Assembly (NCBI RefSeq): GCF_014699035.1
Contig: NZ_JACXAA010000007.1
Location: 186,001 to 250,000, forward strand
Direction: 5' to 3'
DNA length: 64,000 bases
From: Spirosoma validum
GTDB lineage: Bacteria; Bacteroidota; Bacteroidia; Cytophagales; Spirosomataceae
Below the pieces are notes generated by a model that was not told the origin of the DNA, ran no database searches, and saw nothing but the letters and a program-made list of their open reading frames with translations. Within the stretch, counting starts at the first letter, position 1; each line of letters begins with the position of its first letter. The position numbers were made by a program, and so were the translations under genes. Below, piece by piece: positions 9,651 through 44,037 of the stretch.

Positions 9651-9687
<37 letters not shown>

Positions 9688-10518: not shown

Positions 10519-10530
10519 ATCCGTATAGGA

Positions 10531-10605
10531 GTGAAGAATGAAGAGTGAAAAGTGAAGAATAGGCTGACGCAAAATATTCTTCACTTTTCACTCTTCATTC
10601 TTCAC
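10531..10605. repeat. 75-bp perfect inverted repeat
   Basis: Arms of 30 nt (10531-10560 and 10576-10605) are exact reverse complements around a 15-nt loop. Each arm is itself quasi-periodic (GTGAAGAAT, GAAGAGTGAA units). The distal arm touches the GT2 stop codon. Without a clear T-tract it is not an ordinary terminator; it resembles other purine-rich hairpins in this window (27108, 28045). Confidence 0.9.
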
Positions 10606-11612
10606 TAGTTATATTTTCTTCCTTTCCACTCGATCGGTGTTGGCAGGAGGTAAAAAAGCACCGCCAGTGGGCCGATGATAAGCTGGTAAATTTCAAAAGG
10701 CAACACATACGGTAACAAGCTGGTTCGGCGCAATCGGCCTAATCCAAAGGAAATTACGGTCGTCTGAACGAATAGTTTCACTACGTATAAGCTTACTGCC
10801 AAGACCGGATAAAACCAGCCGAGCAGGATCAGCAGTGGTCCAGCCAGATATTGTCCATAGAGCGAAACAACCATCCAGACAGGCAAATCTGTCGCTCCCC
10901 GCATCCATCGTTTTCGCTGATGCAAAAACTGCCGGAACGTATCAACAGGCTTTGTCTGGGCCAGTACCTGTTCATTCAGCAGGTTTCGGAAACCGTATCG
11001 TTTTTTTACAACGGCCTGGAACAGGGCATAATCTTCTACCACCGAAAATGGCAATGATTCGTACCCGCCAACGGCATCGTAAGCGGCACGACTCACAGCC
11101 ATGTTGTTGCCCATAGCTGTAACGGGGATACCCATACTGCTGACTAAATGGGTTAACGTCAGATTATATAGCCAGTCAATCGTCTGGAGTTTGTGGAACA
11201 AAGCTGGGCCTTCGGGCAGCGTAACACCTGTTACAACACCAACTTTTTGGGTGAGGTGTCGGCTTATTTCGGTAAGCCAGTTGGGCGAAACCTGCGTGTC
11301 GGCATCCGTAAAAAAAAGGGAATGGCCCCGGGCGTGCTTAACTAACTGCGCCAGCACATTGGCCTTTCCGCGTAAACCTGTAATGGCGTCGGAAATATTG
11401 ATTAATCGATAGTTAGGCTTATCAGCGATAAAGTCAGTAACAACAGCCTGAGTCTGGTCAGACGATTGATCATTACCGATCAGCACTTCTACAGCGTCGA
11501 GAGGAACGTAGTGGAGCTGAGAAATAGCCTGTAGGCAAGCCATAATGTTCGTTTCTTCGTTACGAGCCGCAATCAGAATGCTAATACTAGGCGAACGGTC
11601 AGTAACCAGCAT
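10605..11612 (-). CDS. Membrane family 2 glycosyltransferase
   Basis: 335 aa from the ATG at 11612 (MLVTDRSPSISILIAARNEE), overlapping the deacetylase stop by 14 bp. GT-A fold: ISILIAARNEE nucleotide-binding strand, FTDADTQ (DxD-type) and the processive-type HQRKRWMRG (QxxRW) motif near residue 230. Two to three C-terminal membrane spans follow. Such enzymes add sugars from nucleotide-sugar donors to lipid or polysaccharide at the inner membrane. It sits in a run with a NodB deacetylase, a second GT2 and a YbhN-like protein, suggesting one glycan or glycolipid pathway. Specific product unknown. Confidence 0.85.
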   Translation of the reverse strand: MLVTDRSPSISILIAARNEETNIMACLQAISQLHYVPLDAVEVLIGNDQSSDQTQAVVTDFIADKPNYRLINISDAITGLRGKANVLAQLVKHARGHSLFFTDADTQVSPNWLTEISRHLTQKVGVVTGVTLPEGPALFHKLQTIDWLYNLTLTHLVSSMGIPVTAMGNNMAVSRAAYDAVGGYESLPFSVVEDYALFQAVVKKRYGFRNLLNEQVLAQTKPVDTFRQFLHQRKRWMRGATDLPVWMVVSLYGQYLAGPLLILLGWFYPVLAVSLYVVKLFVQTTVISFGLGRLRRTSLLPYVLPFEIYQLIIGPLAVLFYLLPTPIEWKGRKYN

Positions 11613-12322: not shown

Positions 12323-13444
12323 TTAACGTAACGTTCGTCCTTTCCAGACATACCCTTTTCCCTGAGCCACCAGCCCGAAGAAAAGAACATAGATCGGGTA
12401 GATCAACTGTGTCAGCGGAATAATCCCCACCGACGATTTTTTTTGTAAAAAAACAAGAACTTGTCGTAAAAACAAAAACTCAGGAATTGCTTTTAGCCCT
12501 ATAACGACCAGAGTAACGTTTCCGTTTAAAAAACCGAGCCACCAGCCCCAAACAGCTATCACAGGGGCCGCATTACTCAGAAAAACAAACACCGCCAGCA
12601 ACGAAGGCAGTATGCTGTTGTAAGCCCGCCACTTACTGGCCCAGCGTTTGCGCTGATTGTAAAACGCACGCCACGAATGATGCGGCTGCGTCCGGACAAT
12701 CGCGTCTGGGTTTTTCAGAAACTGAACGCCGTAAGGATATCGGTCCGCAATTTTGTGCATCAGGAACTCATCATCGCCCGAGGCTAAGTGATCAACGCCC
12801 GCAAAACCGCCCACTTCGGCAAATACTTCGTTTACGTAACAAAGATTGGCACCGTTGCACATGGTCGGAAAACCGAGCGTCATCGTACAGGCTCCCGTAC
12901 CGATCAGGCTGGAAAACTCCACTATTTGCAACGAGTCAAAAATTGTCTGTTCGGTTGTAAAGGTTACGGGACCCGATATCAATTTTGCCCCAGTTTGTAC
13001 GTGACACGTAGCAAACGCAGTCAGCCAGCCCGGCCCAACGCGACAATCGCCATCCGTTGTCAGAATAAGATCGCCCGTCGCCAGTGCGATGCTCTGGGTA
13101 ATCGCCCGCTTTTTTGGGGAAGCGGTATGTTCATTGGATAAGGGCAAAGGGCGGAGGGCATAAGGGGCTCGCGGGACGTATTGCTGAACAATGGACAACG
13201 TAGCGTCGGTAGATGAATCGTCGGCAACGATTACCTCGAAATTCGGGTAGGTCTGCTGGCTAAGATCGTCCAGCAATTGACTAATCGTATTAGCTTCGTT
13301 CCGCACGGGAATCACTACCGTAATACGTGGACCATTGGGTACCGTTTTGGTTGTTTGCACGGTTGGCAATCGCAGCCAGGTAACCCAGAGCGTCAGGGTA
13401 AAAAGTGCGTAGAGCAGGCTAACTACCAGCAGAAAAATCGTCAT
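12323..13444 (-). CDS. Membrane family 2 glycosyltransferase
   Basis: 373 aa from the ATG at 13444, which overlaps the flippase-like stop as ATGA. N-terminal membrane span (MTIFLLVVSLLYALFTLTLW), then GT2 domain: ITVVIPVRNEA, ADDSSTD, TTDGDCRVG, the acceptor region SGDDEF and the NQRKRWASKW (QxxRW) motif. Two or three membrane spans at the C-terminus. Partner of the neighbouring GT2 and the YbhN-like protein in what is probably a glycolipid or surface glycan pathway. Confidence 0.87.
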   Translation of the reverse strand: MTIFLLVVSLLYALFTLTLWVTWLRLPTVQTTKTVPNGPRITVVIPVRNEANTISQLLDDLSQQTYPNFEVIVADDSSTDATLSIVQQYVPRAPYALRPLPLSNEHTASPKKRAITQSIALATGDLILTTDGDCRVGPGWLTAFATCHVQTGAKLISGPVTFTTEQTIFDSLQIVEFSSLIGTGACTMTLGFPTMCNGANLCYVNEVFAEVGGFAGVDHLASGDDEFLMHKIADRYPYGVQFLKNPDAIVRTQPHHSWRAFYNQRKRWASKWRAYNSILPSLLAVFVFLSNAAPVIAVWGWWLGFLNGNVTLVVIGLKAIPEFLFLRQVLVFLQKKSSVGIIPLTQLIYPIYVLFFGLVAQGKGYVWKGRTLR

Positions 13445-14466
13445 TCGGTTGTTAGTTTCAGTTTCCAGACCCAAATTAGTCCTACCAGCACCGGCGTCAG
13501 AACATTAGCGACCCAGAGGGTCAACGTAGCCGTTAGCAGCACCGACGTTGAAACGGTATCATTGGTTTGCGAAAACGGTTCAAATACCCACAATGAAGCG
13601 GCTTCCCGAACGCCGAGATCACTCAGCAGATTGAAGGCGGGGGTAATTGTTTTCACCAAGAACACCAGACCAATGCTGGAGGCAGAGAGCCCCGCCGAAA
13701 GGTGTATGCCTACCAACCGCATGACTAAATAAAACTGTACCGAGAAAACGACGTAACGTAACGCAGCCACACCTAAAGCCTGGGCAATTTCACGATCTGA
13801 ATACAACCCCGCTACGTTCCAGTAGTCAGTGAAACGACGTAGCCCGGGTCGCTTTTCGAGCCAACGAACCAGTCGCTGACGTGTCAGCCCAAACACAATG
13901 CCACCCGCGGATAAAGCCACGAGTATAACCAGCAGCCACTGCCCGGCTATGTTGTTACGTATTGGCACAACCGTTATGTGATGTGCCCATGCCACGGCTC
14001 CAAACACTAATGCTACGTAGAATTGCATTCCGCCCGACACTAACGAAGCCCCCACGGCCTCGGCTCGATGCGTACGTAACGAAAGTACGCGTCCAGCGGT
14101 ATCACCCAGCAGGGCGGGTAACGCAAACCCCAACGCAACACCCGCTAAGACGCCTTTGTACGCCTGCCAGTAGGTCGACTTTTCAATTCGTTGCAGTAAG
14201 ATCTGCCATTTCAGCGCTTCAAAGCCCCAGTTGACGGGTGTGAGTAAAAATAATCCGGCGGCCCATTGTTCGGGATGTTCGACGGCTGTAATCTGTTCGC
14301 GCACAAGGGTCCAATCGAACGGTTGTTGTTGCAGCACATACCCGATGTAGATCAGGAGTCCAGCAAAAACAGCGGTTTTTAGCCAAAAAGTGAATTTTTT
14401 ACCTGGTTTCAGCGACAAAACAGAGGAGAAAACGTTACTTTGCAAAGAGTACAACACCCCAATCAT
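13441..14466 (-). CDS. YbhN-like (UPF0104) multispan membrane protein
   Basis: About 341 aa with seven or eight hydrophobic segments and the pattern of the lysylphosphatidylglycerol-synthase-type membrane domain (LFLLTPVNWGFEALKWQILL; LPALLGDTAGR). Members are implicated in lipid or glycolipid flipping. The ATG at 14466 overlaps the ruvC ATG on the opposite strand in a shared CATG; a TTG at 14418, giving LSLKPGKKF, is a credible alternative that leaves room for promoters. ATGA overlap with the following GT2. Start uncertain. Confidence 0.75.
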   Translation of the reverse strand: MIGVLYSLQSNVFSSVLSLKPGKKFTFWLKTAVFAGLLIYIGYVLQQQPFDWTLVREQITAVEHPEQWAAGLFLLTPVNWGFEALKWQILLQRIEKSTYWQAYKGVLAGVALGFALPALLGDTAGRVLSLRTHRAEAVGASLVSGGMQFYVALVFGAVAWAHHITVVPIRNNIAGQWLLVILVALSAGGIVFGLTRQRLVRWLEKRPGLRRFTDYWNVAGLYSDREIAQALGVAALRYVVFSVQFYLVMRLVGIHLSAGLSASSIGLVFLVKTITPAFNLLSDLGVREAASLWVFEPFSQTNDTVSTSVLLTATLTLWVANVLTPVLVGLIWVWKLKLTTE

Positions 14467-22252: not shown

Positions 22253-22693
22253 ATGCAAACCATTCAACAAACCCTTCGGTTACCCGCTTACGCACGCGGC
22301 TTTCACCTGATTACCCGTACCATTGAGCGTGAGTTTGCAGACCTGCAGCAAATTCGGGTAGGGATTCTGCACGTATTCATTCAGCACACTTCCGCCAGTC
22401 TGACCATTAACGAGAACGCTGACCCGACGGTACGTGGTGACTTTGAGCGTTTTTTCAATAAAACAGCTCCTGAAAATGAACCTTATTATCAACACGATTA
22501 CGAAGGTTCCGACGATATGCCTGCCCACCTAAAAGCGGCTATGCTGGGAAACTCCGTCATGATTCCCATTACGAATGGACGGTTAAATCTGGGAACCTGG
22601 CAGGGTATTTATTTAGGTGAACACCGTAACGATGGCGGACGCCGAACGTTGGTGCTAACGGCTTGGGGAGAAATGATGAACGATGAACGATGA
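22253..22693 (+). CDS. YjbQ family (UPF0047) protein
   Basis: 146 aa, matching the family's usual size. Motifs: HVFIQHTSASLTINENADP, HDYEGSDDMPAHLKAAMLG, and GTWQGIYLGEHRNDGGRRT with conserved His/Asp/Glu that form the metal and phosphate site. Members show thiamine-phosphate-synthase-like activity in vitro. The last codons (MMNDER) lie in a GATGAAC tandem repeat at about 22675-22695. Convergent with the DUF255 gene. Confidence 0.92.
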   Translation: MQTIQQTLRLPAYARGFHLITRTIEREFADLQQIRVGILHVFIQHTSASLTINENADPTVRGDFERFFNKTAPENEPYYQHDYEGSDDMPAHLKAAMLGNSVMIPITNGRLNLGTWQGIYLGEHRNDGGRRTLVLTAWGEMMNDER

Positions 22694-22713
22694 ACGATTT
22701 TATAGCAAATAGT

Positions 22714-24750: not shown

Positions 24751-24751
24751 A

Positions 24752-24852
24752 GGGCAGAGGGATAAGGGCGGAGGGCATGGGGCGAAAAGCGGAGGGGTTA
24801 GATAGAGAATAGATCATAAACTCTTTGTCCCTACCCCTCTGCTTTGTGCCAA
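24752..24852. repeat. G-rich imperfect palindromic repeat
   Basis: The intergenic block between the DUF255 start and the T9SS protein stop. GGGCGAAAAGCGGAGGGG at about 24779 pairs imperfectly with CCCCTCTGCTTTGTGCC at about 24834. The words GGGCATGGGGCG and AGAGGG also occur in the palindrome inside the MurF-Alr gene (42217-42317), so these look like one repeat family. Confidence 0.55.
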
Positions 24853-27187: not shown

Positions 27188-28087
27188 ATGACATTTGAAA
27201 CGGAGCCAGGATTCCACATCAGGGGCGATGCCTGGGGCGATCCGGCAAATCCGCCAGTTTTATTACTACACGGTGGCGGACAAACTCGCCACTCGTGGGG
27301 CGATACAGCGCAGGTGCTGGCCGAAGCCGGCTGGTACGCCATCGCGCTGGATGCACGCGGACACGGCGATAGCGACTGGTCAGCAGCCGGGCATTATGGC
27401 ATCGAGTATTTAGCCCGCGACCTACGGGTTGTAGCAGGCCAGCTTACGCAAAAACCTGCCATTGTTGGGGCCTCGATGGGTGGCATGATGGCGCTAATTG
27501 CGGAAGGTGAGCGCCCCGCTAACCGAGATTCGATCTGTTCAGCCATCGTGCTGGTCGATATTGCACCCCGTTCGGAGCAAAAAGGAATCGAACGAATTTT
27601 TGCGTTTATGAGCGGCAATCAGCATGGATTCGCTACGCTGGATGAAGCTGCCGAAGCCGTCGCAGCTTATCTCCCCCATCGGTCACGTCCTTCTGACCAC
27701 AGTCGGTTAGAGAAAAATTTACGACTACGGGAGAGACCAAACGGCGAAGCGCGTTATTACTGGCACTGGGACCCAACCATGCTGACCTTGTGGCGCCAAA
27801 ACTCAACCCCTGATCAGGCCATACGTAACGAAGAACGACTCTACGCGGCCGCCCGTTCGCTTACCGTCCCAACGCTGATCGTGCGTGGGGGCATGAGCGA
27901 CGTCGTGAGTGATAAAGTCGTCGCCGAATTTCTGGATGCCGTTCCCCACGTACAGAGCGTAAACGTAGCGGAGGCAGGTCACATGGTCGCAGGCGATTCA
28001 AATCATGCCTTTACGAAGGCAGTGATTGAGTTTTTGAGGGAGGAAGGAGAAAAGGGAAGAAGGGGCGGAAAGGATAAAGGTACATAG
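27188..28087 (+). CDS. Alpha/beta hydrolase
   Basis: 299 aa. Oxyanion loop HGGGQTRHSWG, substrate-entry DARGHGDSDW, nucleophile elbow VGASMGGMM (Ser about residue 96), acid in VRGGMSDVV and catalytic His in EAGHMVAGD. Soluble esterase/lipase or haloalkane-type fold; substrate unknown. The last 15 residues (EEGEKGRRGGKDKGT) are encoded by the first arm of a palindromic repeat, so the natural C-terminus was probably shorter. It ends 53 bp before the UMF1 gene. Confidence 0.9.
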   Translation: MTFETEPGFHIRGDAWGDPANPPVLLLHGGGQTRHSWGDTAQVLAEAGWYAIALDARGHGDSDWSAAGHYGIEYLARDLRVVAGQLTQKPAIVGASMGGMMALIAEGERPANRDSICSAIVLVDIAPRSEQKGIERIFAFMSGNQHGFATLDEAAEAVAAYLPHRSRPSDHSRLEKNLRLRERPNGEARYYWHWDPTMLTLWRQNSTPDQAIRNEERLYAAARSLTVPTLIVRGGMSDVVSDKVVAEFLDAVPHVQSVNVAEAGHMVAGDSNHAFTKAVIEFLREEGEKGRRGGKDKGT

Positions 28088-28140
28088 CCGATTTCCATCT
28101 TTCCTCTATTCCCTTTTCTCCCCTTCTTCCCTTTTCTCCT
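28045..28140. repeat. Purine/pyrimidine inverted repeat spanning a stop and a start
   Basis: Perfect 21-nt arms at 28045-28065 (AGGAGAAAAGGGAAGAAGGG and one G) and 28120-28140, separated by 54 bp. The first arm codes for the end of the hydrolase and the second abuts the UMF1 start codon. Confidence 0.85.
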
Positions 28141-41478: not shown

Positions 41479-44037
41479 TCAGTTACCCTCTTTGAAAAAC
41501 ACCCGTTTTACGCGTTCGCTAACGCCCGTCAGAATTTCGTAGGGGATCGTACCGATACGTTGAGCCAGTTCGATGATGGGTAACTCTCTGCCAAAAATCA
41601 CGACTTCGTCACCTTCACTGGCGGATGCCTGCGTTACGTCGATCATGGTCATGTCCATGCACACATTCCCCACCGTTGGGCAGCGTGTACCGTTTACCCA
41701 AACCTCCCCAACTCCATTGCCCAGTCGACGGTCATAGCCGTCAGCATAACCAATGGCTAGCGTAGCAATACGGGCGTCGTGGTCGAGCCAGCCCCGTCGG
41801 CTATAGCCAACCGATTCACCTGCCTGAACGGTTTTAATCTGGCTGATCACCGTCCGTAACGTACCAACCGTTTGTAGGGAGTTTGGATCAATACCACTCG
41901 CTTCAACGCCATACAGACCAATGCCCAAGCGAACCATATCGAGCCTGTAGTCAGTAAATCGCACGATGCCCGCTGAATTGAGCAGATGGCGGGTCGGTCG
42001 GTAGCCTAATCCCGTTTCGAGCGTAGCCGTACTGCGAAGAAACGTATCATACTGCTGCTGCGAAAATGAGTTAAACTGTGCTTCATCGGCCCCCACCAGA
42101 TGACTGAACACGGTCGATACGCGCAACAACGGATGTTGATTCAGATACGCAACAACTTCTGGAATTTCTTCTTCCAGAAACCCCAGTCGATGCATGCCGG
42201 TGTCGATTTTTAGATGCAGAGGGTATAGGGCATGGGGCGTAGGGTAAGGAGTTGTTAATGAGGAACTAGCGGGAGTAGACGCTCCTTCGCCCCACGCTCC
42301 ATGCCCTTTGCCCTCTTCCACAAACCTACCCCACTCCCGTAGTAACCGCATGCTGTAAATCTCTGGTTCGAGCTTGTATTCCAGCAACGTAGCGAAGGTT
42401 TCGGGACGGTCCGGCGATCCGGTTGGGTTCATAACCATAATCGGCAGATCAACGCCATGCTGGCGTAGCACTACCCCTTCATCGGCATAGGCAACAGCCA
42501 GATAATCGACCCGGTGAAACTGTAGTAGCTGAGCAACTTCGGCGCTGCCACTTCCGTAAGCGAAGGCTTTCACCATCACCATAATTTTCGTATCTGCCCC
42601 AACTTTTTCGCGGTAGTAATTCAGGTTATGCGTCAGGGCATCAAGATTAATTTCGAGAACGGTGCCGTGTACTTTTCGTTCCAGTCGATGCACAATTCGT
42701 TCGAACGAAAAGGGTCTTGCACCCTTGACCAGCAAGGTGCTATCGCGTAGATCACTAAATGGGAACTGCCCCAAAAACTCCTCCGTGGTGCTGTAGAACA
42801 GACTGTTCCCGGCAAACCATTGCGCATTCCGGCTGACGACCGGCCCAATCCCAATAAACTGCTCAACGTGATTACTACGTATCAACTCACCAACCTGTTC
42901 ATACAAATCAGCTTCGGGCTGGCCCGACTGCAGGACATCGGACAGAATAACCACCCGACGATTTCGGGTATTCTGTTGGTTCAGGAAACGTAACGCGAGC
43001 TGCAAGCCAACAACGTCGTTATTATACGAATCATCAATAAGCACACAGTTGTTAATGCCCTCTTTCTGTTCAAGCCGCATTGAAACCGGTCGTAGTCGAT
43101 TCAGCCGGATTTGTAAGTCTTCGCTACTCCAGGAACGTAACGTCAACATTGTAACTACACAATGCAGCAGATTCTCTATGGATGCTGGATCGGTGAACGG
43201 CACTTGCAACCGATACATGCCTGTTGGTCCGCTTATGGTAAGGTGGTTCTGAGCCAGCGTAGCCTGATACGTAGCAGCCTTGCCCGTTAACGACCACGTA
43301 ATGAACCGCATGTCCGGATTAACCGCTTTCAGCAGCAGATTGACCTCATCATCGACTTCAGCATAATCGGTACAGTAAATCAGCGTTTTAGCGTGAATAA
43401 ACAGCCGCAACTTTTCGGCTATTTTCTGCTTTCGGGTTCGGAATCCTTCGTCGTGTGCCGTGCCTATGTTGGTAAAAATGCCAAGCGTTGGCCGGATGAT
43501 GGCTTCAAGTGCCTGCATCTCGTGAGCTTTGGAGATACCGGCCTCGAAAATCCCGAGCGTGTGGTTTTTCGTTAACGTATGCACCGACAGGGGTACGCCC
43601 AACTGCGAGTTGTAACTCTTGGGGCTTTTCGCAATCACAAACTCATCGGCCAGCAACTGGACCAGCCATTCTTTTACAATGGTTTTGCCGTTACTGCCCG
43701 TAATACCAATGATTGGATTATGAAACTGCCGCCGTTGTTGAGCAGCCAGCGTTTGCAAGGTTTGAAGACTACTATCGACCTCAATAAACTGGGCATCAGC
43801 GTAGCGCGCCAACTCCTCCCGGCGGTCCGGCGGTCCGGTTAGGGCCGACCGTTCAACAACAAACTGTCGAATTCCCTTTTGGTATAGTTCACCGATGAAC
43901 GCATGCCCATCGTGATGATCGCCCTGAATGGCAAAAAAAACGCTGTCGGCTACTTGTCCATCACCACCGCCAGCCGTTACCTGCCGGGAATCGGTAATCC
44001 ACTGCTTAGTAATCAATTGGTTATCCTTCGTAATCAT
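41479..44037 (-). CDS. MurF-Alr fusion: UDP-MurNAc-tripeptide D-Ala-D-Ala ligase and alanine racemase
   Basis: 852 aa, a fusion known in Bacteroidota. The N-terminal ~450 residues are a Mur ligase: IIGITGSNGKTIVKEW (P-loop), IFEAGISKAHEMQAL, and LIDDSYNNDVVGLQLAL. The C-terminal ~400 are alanine racemase: PLP-Lys in VMVKAFAYGSG (about 488), substrate-binding HLKIDTGMHRLGF and catalytic Tyr in GESVGYSRRGW. Supplies D-Ala and adds D-Ala-D-Ala to the peptidoglycan precursor. Residues about 573-607 are an extra Gly/Ser/Pro-rich loop encoded by a palindrome (42217-42317). Confidence 0.95.
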   Translation of the reverse strand: MITKDNQLITKQWITDSRQVTAGGGDGQVADSVFFAIQGDHHDGHAFIGELYQKGIRQFVVERSALTGPPDRREELARYADAQFIEVDSSLQTLQTLAAQQRRQFHNPIIGITGSNGKTIVKEWLVQLLADEFVIAKSPKSYNSQLGVPLSVHTLTKNHTLGIFEAGISKAHEMQALEAIIRPTLGIFTNIGTAHDEGFRTRKQKIAEKLRLFIHAKTLIYCTDYAEVDDEVNLLLKAVNPDMRFITWSLTGKAATYQATLAQNHLTISGPTGMYRLQVPFTDPASIENLLHCVVTMLTLRSWSSEDLQIRLNRLRPVSMRLEQKEGINNCVLIDDSYNNDVVGLQLALRFLNQQNTRNRRVVILSDVLQSGQPEADLYEQVGELIRSNHVEQFIGIGPVVSRNAQWFAGNSLFYSTTEEFLGQFPFSDLRDSTLLVKGARPFSFERIVHRLERKVHGTVLEINLDALTHNLNYYREKVGADTKIMVMVKAFAYGSGSAEVAQLLQFHRVDYLAVAYADEGVVLRQHGVDLPIMVMNPTGSPDRPETFATLLEYKLEPEIYSMRLLREWGRFVEEGKGHGAWGEGASTPASSSLTTPYPTPHALYPLHLKIDTGMHRLGFLEEEIPEVVAYLNQHPLLRVSTVFSHLVGADEAQFNSFSQQQYDTFLRSTATLETGLGYRPTRHLLNSAGIVRFTDYRLDMVRLGIGLYGVEASGIDPNSLQTVGTLRTVISQIKTVQAGESVGYSRRGWLDHDARIATLAIGYADGYDRRLGNGVGEVWVNGTRCPTVGNVCMDMTMIDVTQASASEGDEVVIFGRELPIIELAQRIGTIPYEILTGVSERVKRVFFKEGN
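42217..42317. repeat. Palindromic repeat inside the murF-alr coding sequence
   Basis: Imperfect inverted repeat: GCAGAGGGTATAGGGCATGG on the left and CCATGCCCTTTGCCCTCTTC on the right, with TAAGGAG/CTCC inner parts. It lies in the alanine racemase domain and stays in frame, coding for residues such as EEGKGHGAWGEGASTPASSS that normal racemases lack at this place. Confidence 0.75.

Follow-up and report, generated by a model that had tools for sequence, protein, structure and literature searches.

Palindromic arrays of seven-nucleotide units, differing in motif, fill the same enzyme loops across the genus Spirosoma

We analysed a 64,000-nucleotide stretch of the Spirosoma validum genome (assembly GCF_014699035.1, contig NZ_JACXAA010000007.1, positions 186,001 to 250,000 of the forward strand), referred to here as the window, in which a MurF-Alr fusion gene carries an in-frame palindrome built of degenerate 7-nt units (heptads). 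The insert in the alanine racemase (Alr) part is one of dozens of heptad arrays in the genome, many of them palindromic. The surprise is that the same loops are filled genus-wide by different, often self-complementary 7-nt arrays, rather than the insert itself. We consider it moderately probable that slippage by 7 nt, together with fold-back template switching, made these hairpins grow and change where they stand, with a filter for reading frame and loop tolerance. The pattern hints that DNA within functioning genes is being rewritten again and again.

An in-frame hairpin in the MurF-Alr gene

The array (Table 1) is an imperfect inverted repeat of 34 codons directly ahead of the conserved HLKIDTG strand, and its arms are built of degenerate units NNRGGGC, each with a G-run. 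The Alr part of the protein matched 49 distinct PDB sequences, mostly alanine racemases. Because the aligned parts are 12 residues apart in racemase 4y2w (after 114, before 127) and 37 apart in MurF-Alr (after query residue 99, before 137), we place the insert in a loop, presumably one preceding a strand of the barrel; this loop probably lies at the protein surface. The original prediction counted about 30 extra residues here. The in-frame repeat spans 34 codons, but the excess is smaller, roughly 15-27 residues, because the LLREW-to-HLKIDTG distance, 43 amino acids (aa) in this protein, already spans 16-28 aa in the compared relatives excluding Spirosoma, Fibrisoma montanum and Fibrella rubiginis. 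The loop also varies in length within the genus (11-41 aa, median 17, in 30 species).

A low-complexity, G-rich loop might look palindromic by coincidence or artefact, and the word common to the Alr element and an intergenic repeat, on which the original prediction drew, leaves some room for this. GGGCATGGGGC does occur exactly at 24773 and 42228 of the window, but alone it is barely above chance: the 12-mer RGGGCATGGGGC has 13 window matches at up to two mismatches where 7.1 would be expected, a count equalled or exceeded in 6 of 100 shuffles. A common word alone is weak evidence of a repeat. The structure is another matter. With a block-swap shuffle made for this analysis, which preserves neighbouring-base pairs, 0 of 300 shuffles reached the palindrome score or the lag-7 score of the element, and both scores were reached by 2 of 1,590 other windows scored, both of them another 7-nt palindrome at about 10530. 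In self-comparison lag 7 scores 11, and lags 4-6 and 8-12 score at most 5. Tandem Repeats Finder, run over the window, misses the Alr array because its units are too degenerate. Also counting against coincidence are the genome-wide matches to the heptad pattern given below and the arrays of this kind that many species, each sequenced independently, have at this position. Shuffles and genome-wide counts rule out a chance origin of the structure, and coincidence or artefact is very hard to credit; the Alr inverted repeat is real, confirming the original observation.

Heptad arrays across the genome and genus

We number the 36 genus genomes from G000, the genome of the window, and give L-numbers to loci cut from them. 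A three-unit search pattern, GGGCNNRGGGYNNRGGG, has 88 matches in G000 and 2 when reversed as a control. It is present in 32 of the 36 genomes with a patchy distribution: seven genomes alone (G000, G006, G007, G015, G017, G024 and G030) have more than 30 matches (33-88), and G010 and G028, sisters of G007, have 2 and 1. Of 121 genomes sampled from the family, 66 carry the pattern, with a maximum of 239 matches in one genome. A different G-rich repeat, GGGCCGGGGGTGAGGGG with close variants, makes up a good part of the listed heptad-pattern matches in G002, G003, G008 and G012.

We collected 61 unit clusters from two 400-kb contig stretches (800 kb, taken whole) and from 38 loci picked by pattern, of which L152 yielded none; the loose search also took in a 9-nt palindrome (C11 67103), which counts as one of the clusters, and the G000 array listing ends at C37:350671, with C37 past base 400,000, C38 and C39 covered in part. 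About 15 of the 61 clusters lie in frame within genes (a spanning open reading frame (ORF) plus coding-like flanks), so that the search of other genes proposed with the original prediction turned up dozens of arrays and numerous in-frame copies. This class was defined by a custom ORF and codon score made for this analysis and has weaker members, such as the oxidase (L163), whose left flank scores about zero; the acyltransferase (L165) and dehydrogenase (L182) arrays are located near gene ends. Gene names rest on reading of the translations, Alr alone having been checked against a database. Besides Alr, we take the array-bearing genes to encode a glycosyltransferase (window 13141), a GlgE-like maltosyltransferase, an NAD-dependent DNA ligase (LigA), a GlcD-like oxidase, two membrane acyltransferase-like proteins, dihydroorotase (PyrC), a VCBS-repeat protein (twice), a YheT-like hydrolase, a metal-receptor-like protein, an IcmF-like mutase, UvrA and a xanthine-dehydrogenase-like protein with the array near its end.

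An opposing arm (score at least 10) accompanies 37 of the 46 clusters outside genes and 5 of the 15 inside (Fisher p 0.001; tallies counted by hand). In the other 10 in-gene arrays no second arm was detected, with a weak one visible by eye in some. These counts bear on an alternative in which Rickettsia-like mobile palindromes of several families, transposed ready-made by some route and accepted in frame at loops, have repeatedly struck tolerant sites in different species. Some 15 in-frame copies in unrelated genes and several palindrome families per genome are what it would lead one to expect; the frequency of one-armed arrays in genes (10/15 as detected) and the lack of a constant sequence among heptad copies speak against it.

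Units common across heptad loci include GGCAGAG, GGCATGG, GGCATAG and GGGTAAG. In a comparison of unit order using the longest arm of each of 57 loci, three consecutive units were in common in 6 locus pairs, where 1.1 would be expected (a number matched by 2 of 500 shuffles), and no pair among the 57 loci had four in common. The loci thus have a vocabulary of units in common and, weakly, their order. Because the three-unit order in common lies slightly above expectation, some copying between loci is possible, hardly of whole elements. Arms are somewhat more alike within than between loci (median similarity 0.83 vs 0.76, a crude and mildly informative measure), and fully identical arms occur in 8 of 32 comparisons within a locus vs 0.8% of 992 between loci.

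Different motifs in the same loops

We compared four sites, in Alr, LigA, PyrC and the YheT-like hydrolase, leaving the IcmF-like mutase outside the comparison. The Alr set covers the 30 of 36 genus genomes with cut loci; LigA is represented by 29 of its 30 cut loci, L215 having a break there, and PyrC and YheT by 30 of 30. Own palindromic or heptad Alr loops occur in G006 (L018), G003 (L021), G008 (L020), G023 (L029), G022 and G001 (L024, L032), G017 (L028) and G030 (L035), and other genus orthologues have a short plain loop. In Fibrisoma montanum and Fibrella rubiginis the Alr loop consists of purine-rich repeats with a pyrimidine-rich second half. The original prediction expected relatives to lack the insert; some do have the plain short loop, but many carry different 7-nt palindromic arrays of their own. 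The LigA, PyrC and YheT-like loops likewise hold palindromic 7-nt arrays of differing motifs or are plain and short.

The YheT-like loop shows a series of motifs: GGGCNNR in G000 and G015; ATGATGA-like units in G006, G017 and others; ATGGATA in G008, G023, G022, G001 and G033; GGAGTTA in G007 and G010; GTGAAGA in G003; AAGAGTG in G012; and two further types, one in G004/G005 and one in G030. G028 was labelled GGAGTTA from the length of an interrupted match alone, its loop being unread. All labels were assigned by eye after the sequences had been seen. On a tree of 30 genomes with at least three of the four proteins (from which G033 dropped out), nine genomes have no array in this loop, and the by-eye labels need at least 12 motif changes, the least possible being 8. 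Because shuffled labels need a mean of 18.8 changes, with 0 of 200 shuffles as low as observed, the motif labels follow kinship as well. G015 joins G022 and G001 with 100% support, and G003 joins G008 with 96%, the motifs differing in both cases.

Period, polarity and steps of the arrays

Among loops of at least 22 aa at the four sites, period 7 is the sole best period in 39 of 58, against 13 of 61 shorter loops and 119 of 2,812 control windows of the same genes, where loop and control rows come from related species and hence are not independent. The lag-7 score of the site exceeds that of all control windows of its gene in 10 of 30 species for Alr, 11 of 29 for LigA, 11 of 30 for PyrC and 19 of 30 for YheT. 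The arrays are also polar: the first half is the purine-richer in 38 of the 39 long period-7 loops, and in 2.0 Mb of fetched stretches all eight period-7 palindromes have a purine-rich 5' arm.

Several loops differ by whole units or by the state of one arm. The hydrolase loops of the sister species G022 and G001 (L264, L268) differ by 7 aa, that is 21 nt or three units, in one arm. That of G011 (L277) has an expanded left arm and a short right one, and those of G031 and G029 (L272, L279) are minimal, with short arms on both sides. Such graded growth in 7-nt steps at one site also speaks against ready-made mobile palindromes. In the Alr gene of G030 (L035) the far arm holds an inverted copy of the native codons preceding the insert (GGGGCACTTTGTGG...), visible both on inspection by eye and in the fold predicted for it; a template switch would produce such a copy.

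A more far-reaching idea is that a systematic, perhaps dedicated, polymerase-linked 7-nt "writing" process lays lineage-specific, purine-first heptad arrays and inverted copies at fixed hot spots in Spirosoma and its family, loops of essential enzymes among them, the sites being inherited and the sequence exchanged. If true, the fact that Nostoc, Xanthomonas and Spirosoma all have 7-nt units, with unrelated motifs, would suggest that bacteria have a mechanical step of 7 nt in common. Among 175 palindromes with arms of at least 18 nt (2.0 Mb), the best period is 7 in 8, 8 in 7 and 9 in 8, with no clear period in 145. Periods 7, 8 and 9 are thus alike among palindromes at large, which slightly lowers the odds that we give to this process; we rate it as a distinctly improbable explanation.

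Changes between sister genomes

We examined 36 hairpin rows with syntenic flanks, viewed from both sides, in three sister pairs; the totals do not include 55 hairpins for which the fetched stretches showed no synteny, 6 whose partner site was empty and 4 whose arms mostly differed. Hairpin loops are inverted between sisters at three distinct loci (G010 49387 and 79267 vs G028, and G005 144822 vs G004, as offsets in the fetched stretches; G010 49387 and G028 2270 are one place and were counted once). Thirteen hairpins, each taken a single time, mostly retain their arms; of the 10 pairs in them that changed on both sides, 9 are still paired; viewed from both sides the figures are 23 of 28, with 53 one-sided changes.

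Paired arm changes are also what would be seen if hairpins were kept for a function, as mRNA-stabilising or terminating stem-loops, G-quadruplexes or useful peptide loops, with the sequence free and the structure retained. Such a role would fit the orthologous intergenic sites that keep a hairpin though the arms differ, and G-runs able to form quadruplexes, which recall the repeats described for Xanthomonas and Nostoc in passages of PMC4692102. Yet the second arm is often missing where the arrays lie in genes, several species have a short, array-free loop at the same site, and a terminator role would be excluded midway through essential genes. AT-rich units without G-runs fill the same site, on which ground we reject G-quadruplexes as a general cause. 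Overall we think a kept function rather improbable.

Insertion of finished elements also occurs in the genus. G005 holds two palindromes of about 80 bp (GGACTTTCGCT...AGCGAAAGTCC), cleanly absent from its sister G004, and one of this GGACTTTCGCT family has a probable 7-bp direct duplication, AGGATAA. Where G015 has G-heptad arrays at two intergenic sites, the hairpin of G022 is unrelated and G001 has next to nothing; two sites have unrelated hairpins in G007 and G010, one of them lacking any hairpin in G028. These differing hairpins would be accounted for if ready-made palindromes were inserted and lost where they are tolerated, and together with the slight excess of unit order in common they lend the mobile-palindrome explanation some weight. 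At the two heptad sites compared with sisters no target-site duplication was clear. None of four loci with Y1-transposase genes (about 3.2 kb each) has a heptad hairpin within about 1.5 kb, which argues against mobility by this route; one C-heptad array lies 1.3 kb from a Y1_Tnp gene. As none of the four Y1_Tnp genes is flanked by heptad hairpins, an origin of the heptads from repetitive extragenic palindromic sequences and their associated transposases (REP/RAYT) was rejected. Taken together, mobile palindromes seem to us an unlikely source of the arrays.

Beside a palindrome on contig C63 of G022, compared with G015 and G001 (L361, L190, L362), there is an extra gene just where G015 has a heptad hairpin and G001 next to nothing. 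The gene presumably encodes a Uma2-type endonuclease, which it resembles.

Proposed growth and rewriting in place

In the account that we favour, of hairpins grown and rewritten where they stand, replication slippage would multiply a purine-rich 7-nt unit, and fold-back (snap-back or template-switch) synthesis would copy the array inversely nearby, giving a hairpin with a purine-rich 5' arm. Further slippage, template switching and replacement would then change the units while the arms stay matched and the loop sometimes inverts. In genes, the survivors would be those that keep the frame (for example by gain or loss of three units, 21 nt), contain no stop and lie in a tolerant loop; such a filter would leave the Alr, LigA, PyrC and YheT loops occupied repeatedly by different motifs. 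The arrays and their in-frame positions, the different motifs at the same site, the period of 7 at coding sites, the purine-first polarity and, between sister genomes, inverted loops and arms that changed in pairs are all observed. The enzymatic route of hairpin formation is the one we infer from them. By analogy, heptad hairpins may take the same route as the other hairpin types in which steps were visible, and the encoded peptide would presumably be neutral.

Several observations weigh against growth in place. One-sided arm changes outnumber paired double ones, 31 vs 9 in the 13 hairpins counted once, and the inversions and paired changes are mostly in hairpins other than heptad arrays. G000 lacks a close sister (its best Alr match is 74% identical in DNA), and for this reason no mutational step is visible at the Alr site. 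Ready-made palindromes of another family also insert in the genus, as in G005, and the two G015 sites show unrelated or nearly absent hairpins in sister genomes. The small excess of unit order in common hints at copying between loci. Finally, the 7-nt preference is plain at coding sites and not in palindromes at large.

The four proteins in about 30 species form a natural series, all in the same loops, from which one can follow step by step how hairpins are born and rewritten. The series bears on the origin of palindromes and the matching of their arms, on the frequency of 7-nt units in bacteria and on the rise of new enzyme loops. It also calls for caution in annotation: where conserved enzymes of this group vary in length, the cause may be repeat turnover rather than adaptation.

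Comparison with known systems

Closest in effect are the palindromic elements of Rickettsia, described in PMC10969869 as in-frame palindromes, about 150 bp long, that occur in a large number of unrelated genes, and the original prediction chose a fair analogue in naming them. The 101-bp in-frame palindrome and the in-gene clusters, 5 of them two-armed, are similar to these elements. Genome-wide recurrence, in frame in genes, agrees with the Rickettsia-type reading; the data do not support a single family inserted into an otherwise empty site. Unlike the Rickettsia elements, which have a conserved sequence and peptide, the copies here have units and hairpin form in common and little unit order. 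We rejected a simple family of that type given the little sequence common to the copies.

Closest in make-up, as far as the passages cited here describe them, are two sets of heptads: those in the P6b stem of the Nostoc trnL intron, and the G-rich ones known from Xanthomonas and Nostoc. The P6b stem consists of degenerate heptads of Class I (TDNGATT) and Class II (NNTGAGT) (passages of PMC4476775), and like the Spirosoma arrays it combines degenerate 7-nt stem units with length steps of 7 nt and replacement of the unit class while the stem stays. It is, however, one stem of a cyanobacterial RNA intron, whereas the arrays described here occupy dozens of Bacteroidota loci, some in frame in genes, and a single coding site has at least six kinds of motif as judged by eye. 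The G-rich heptads GGGAATC and GGGGA(C/T)T are dispersed over the genome and mostly intergenic; 68% are intergenic in Nostoc PCC 7120 and 7-11% intragenic in Xanthomonas, where 70-75 convergent pairs make inverted repeats (passages of PMC4692102). Intragenic heptad copies as such are therefore not new. Those passages give one motif type per organism and do not report motif replacement at coding sites. The Spirosoma arrays are heptameric hairpins in the same sense, being tandem degenerate 7-nt units in convergent, pairing arrays, but the motifs TDNGATT, NNTGAGT and GGGNATC are not theirs; by inspection their units are NNRGGGC and others.

Template switching at inverted repeats is described, in PMC8794818 and PMC8604942, as homogenising arms, inverting spacers and creating hairpins in one event. 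It is known there from RNA genes and yeast genes, and here it would be joined to 7-nt arrays genome-wide. Inverted repeats also lie within functional protein genes of Nematomorpha mitochondria (PMC6649704); in those palindromes both arms encode conserved residues, whereas the repeat-built palindrome here adds variable loop residues. Among the papers listed by searches of the open-access PMC literature, we found none describing heptameric or palindromic repeats of this kind for Spirosoma, its family, Bacteroidetes or Cytophaga.

Other repeats and feature coordinates

The window holds further heptad features (Table 1). A weaker C-rich stretch follows the second array at about 24831-24843 (by eye). 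The RTGAARA element is a near-perfect palindrome (AGTGAAGAATGAAGAGTGAAAAGTGAAGAATA) with the loop GGCTGACGCAAAA, and belongs to a family distinct from the G-rich one.

Table 1. Positions of the main features; numbers refer to the window unless a contig is given.
Feature	Position	Strand	Remarks
MurF-Alr fusion ORF	41479..44037	minus	852 aa; contains hairpin insert
Palindromic heptad array in MurF-Alr	42216..42316	minus	in frame; 101 bp; encodes residues 574-607 EEGKGHGAWGEGASTPASSSLTTPYPTPHALYPL
G-rich arm of Alr hairpin	42218..42244	plus	AGAGGGT ATAGGGC ATGGGGC GTAGGG
Hairpin loop (spacer) of Alr element	42245..42289	plus	45 nt separating arms
C-rich arm of Alr hairpin	42290..42316	plus	27 nt; complementarity to G-rich arm 85%
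Second heptad array in window	24751..24783	plus	no spanning ORF; GGGCATGGGGC in common with Alr element
Third G-heptad array in window	13141..13165	plus	one-armed; encodes PYALRPLPL in frame
ORF with third array	12323-13474	minus	glycosyltransferase-like by translation reading
RTGAARA heptad palindrome	10530..10606	.	palindrome score 32
G005 palindromes of about 80 bp	C1 ~2147177-2147255 and 2209148-2209223 (offsets 132177, 194148)		MITE-like (miniature inverted-repeat transposable element) family

Plain tandem heptads also occur in the window, namely ATGATGA (5.3 copies, 9651-9687) and GATGAAC (3.4 copies, 22675-22698). Purine-rich palindromes with a repeat of about 9 nt (by eye GGGARRARA) lie at 28045-28140 of the window and, in G000, at C37 103112, 290852, 307312, 327884 and 397657 and at C11 91170 and 108623. 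In L150, a REP-like palindrome (GGTACCACGGACTTTAGTCCGTT and variants) stands on both sides of one Y1-transposase gene (1375-1433 and 2082-2148), possibly a REP/RAYT pair separate from the heptads. Similar REP-like palindromes are dispersed at G000 C37 46271, 142356 and 262988 and at C11 13256, 34812 and 54706.

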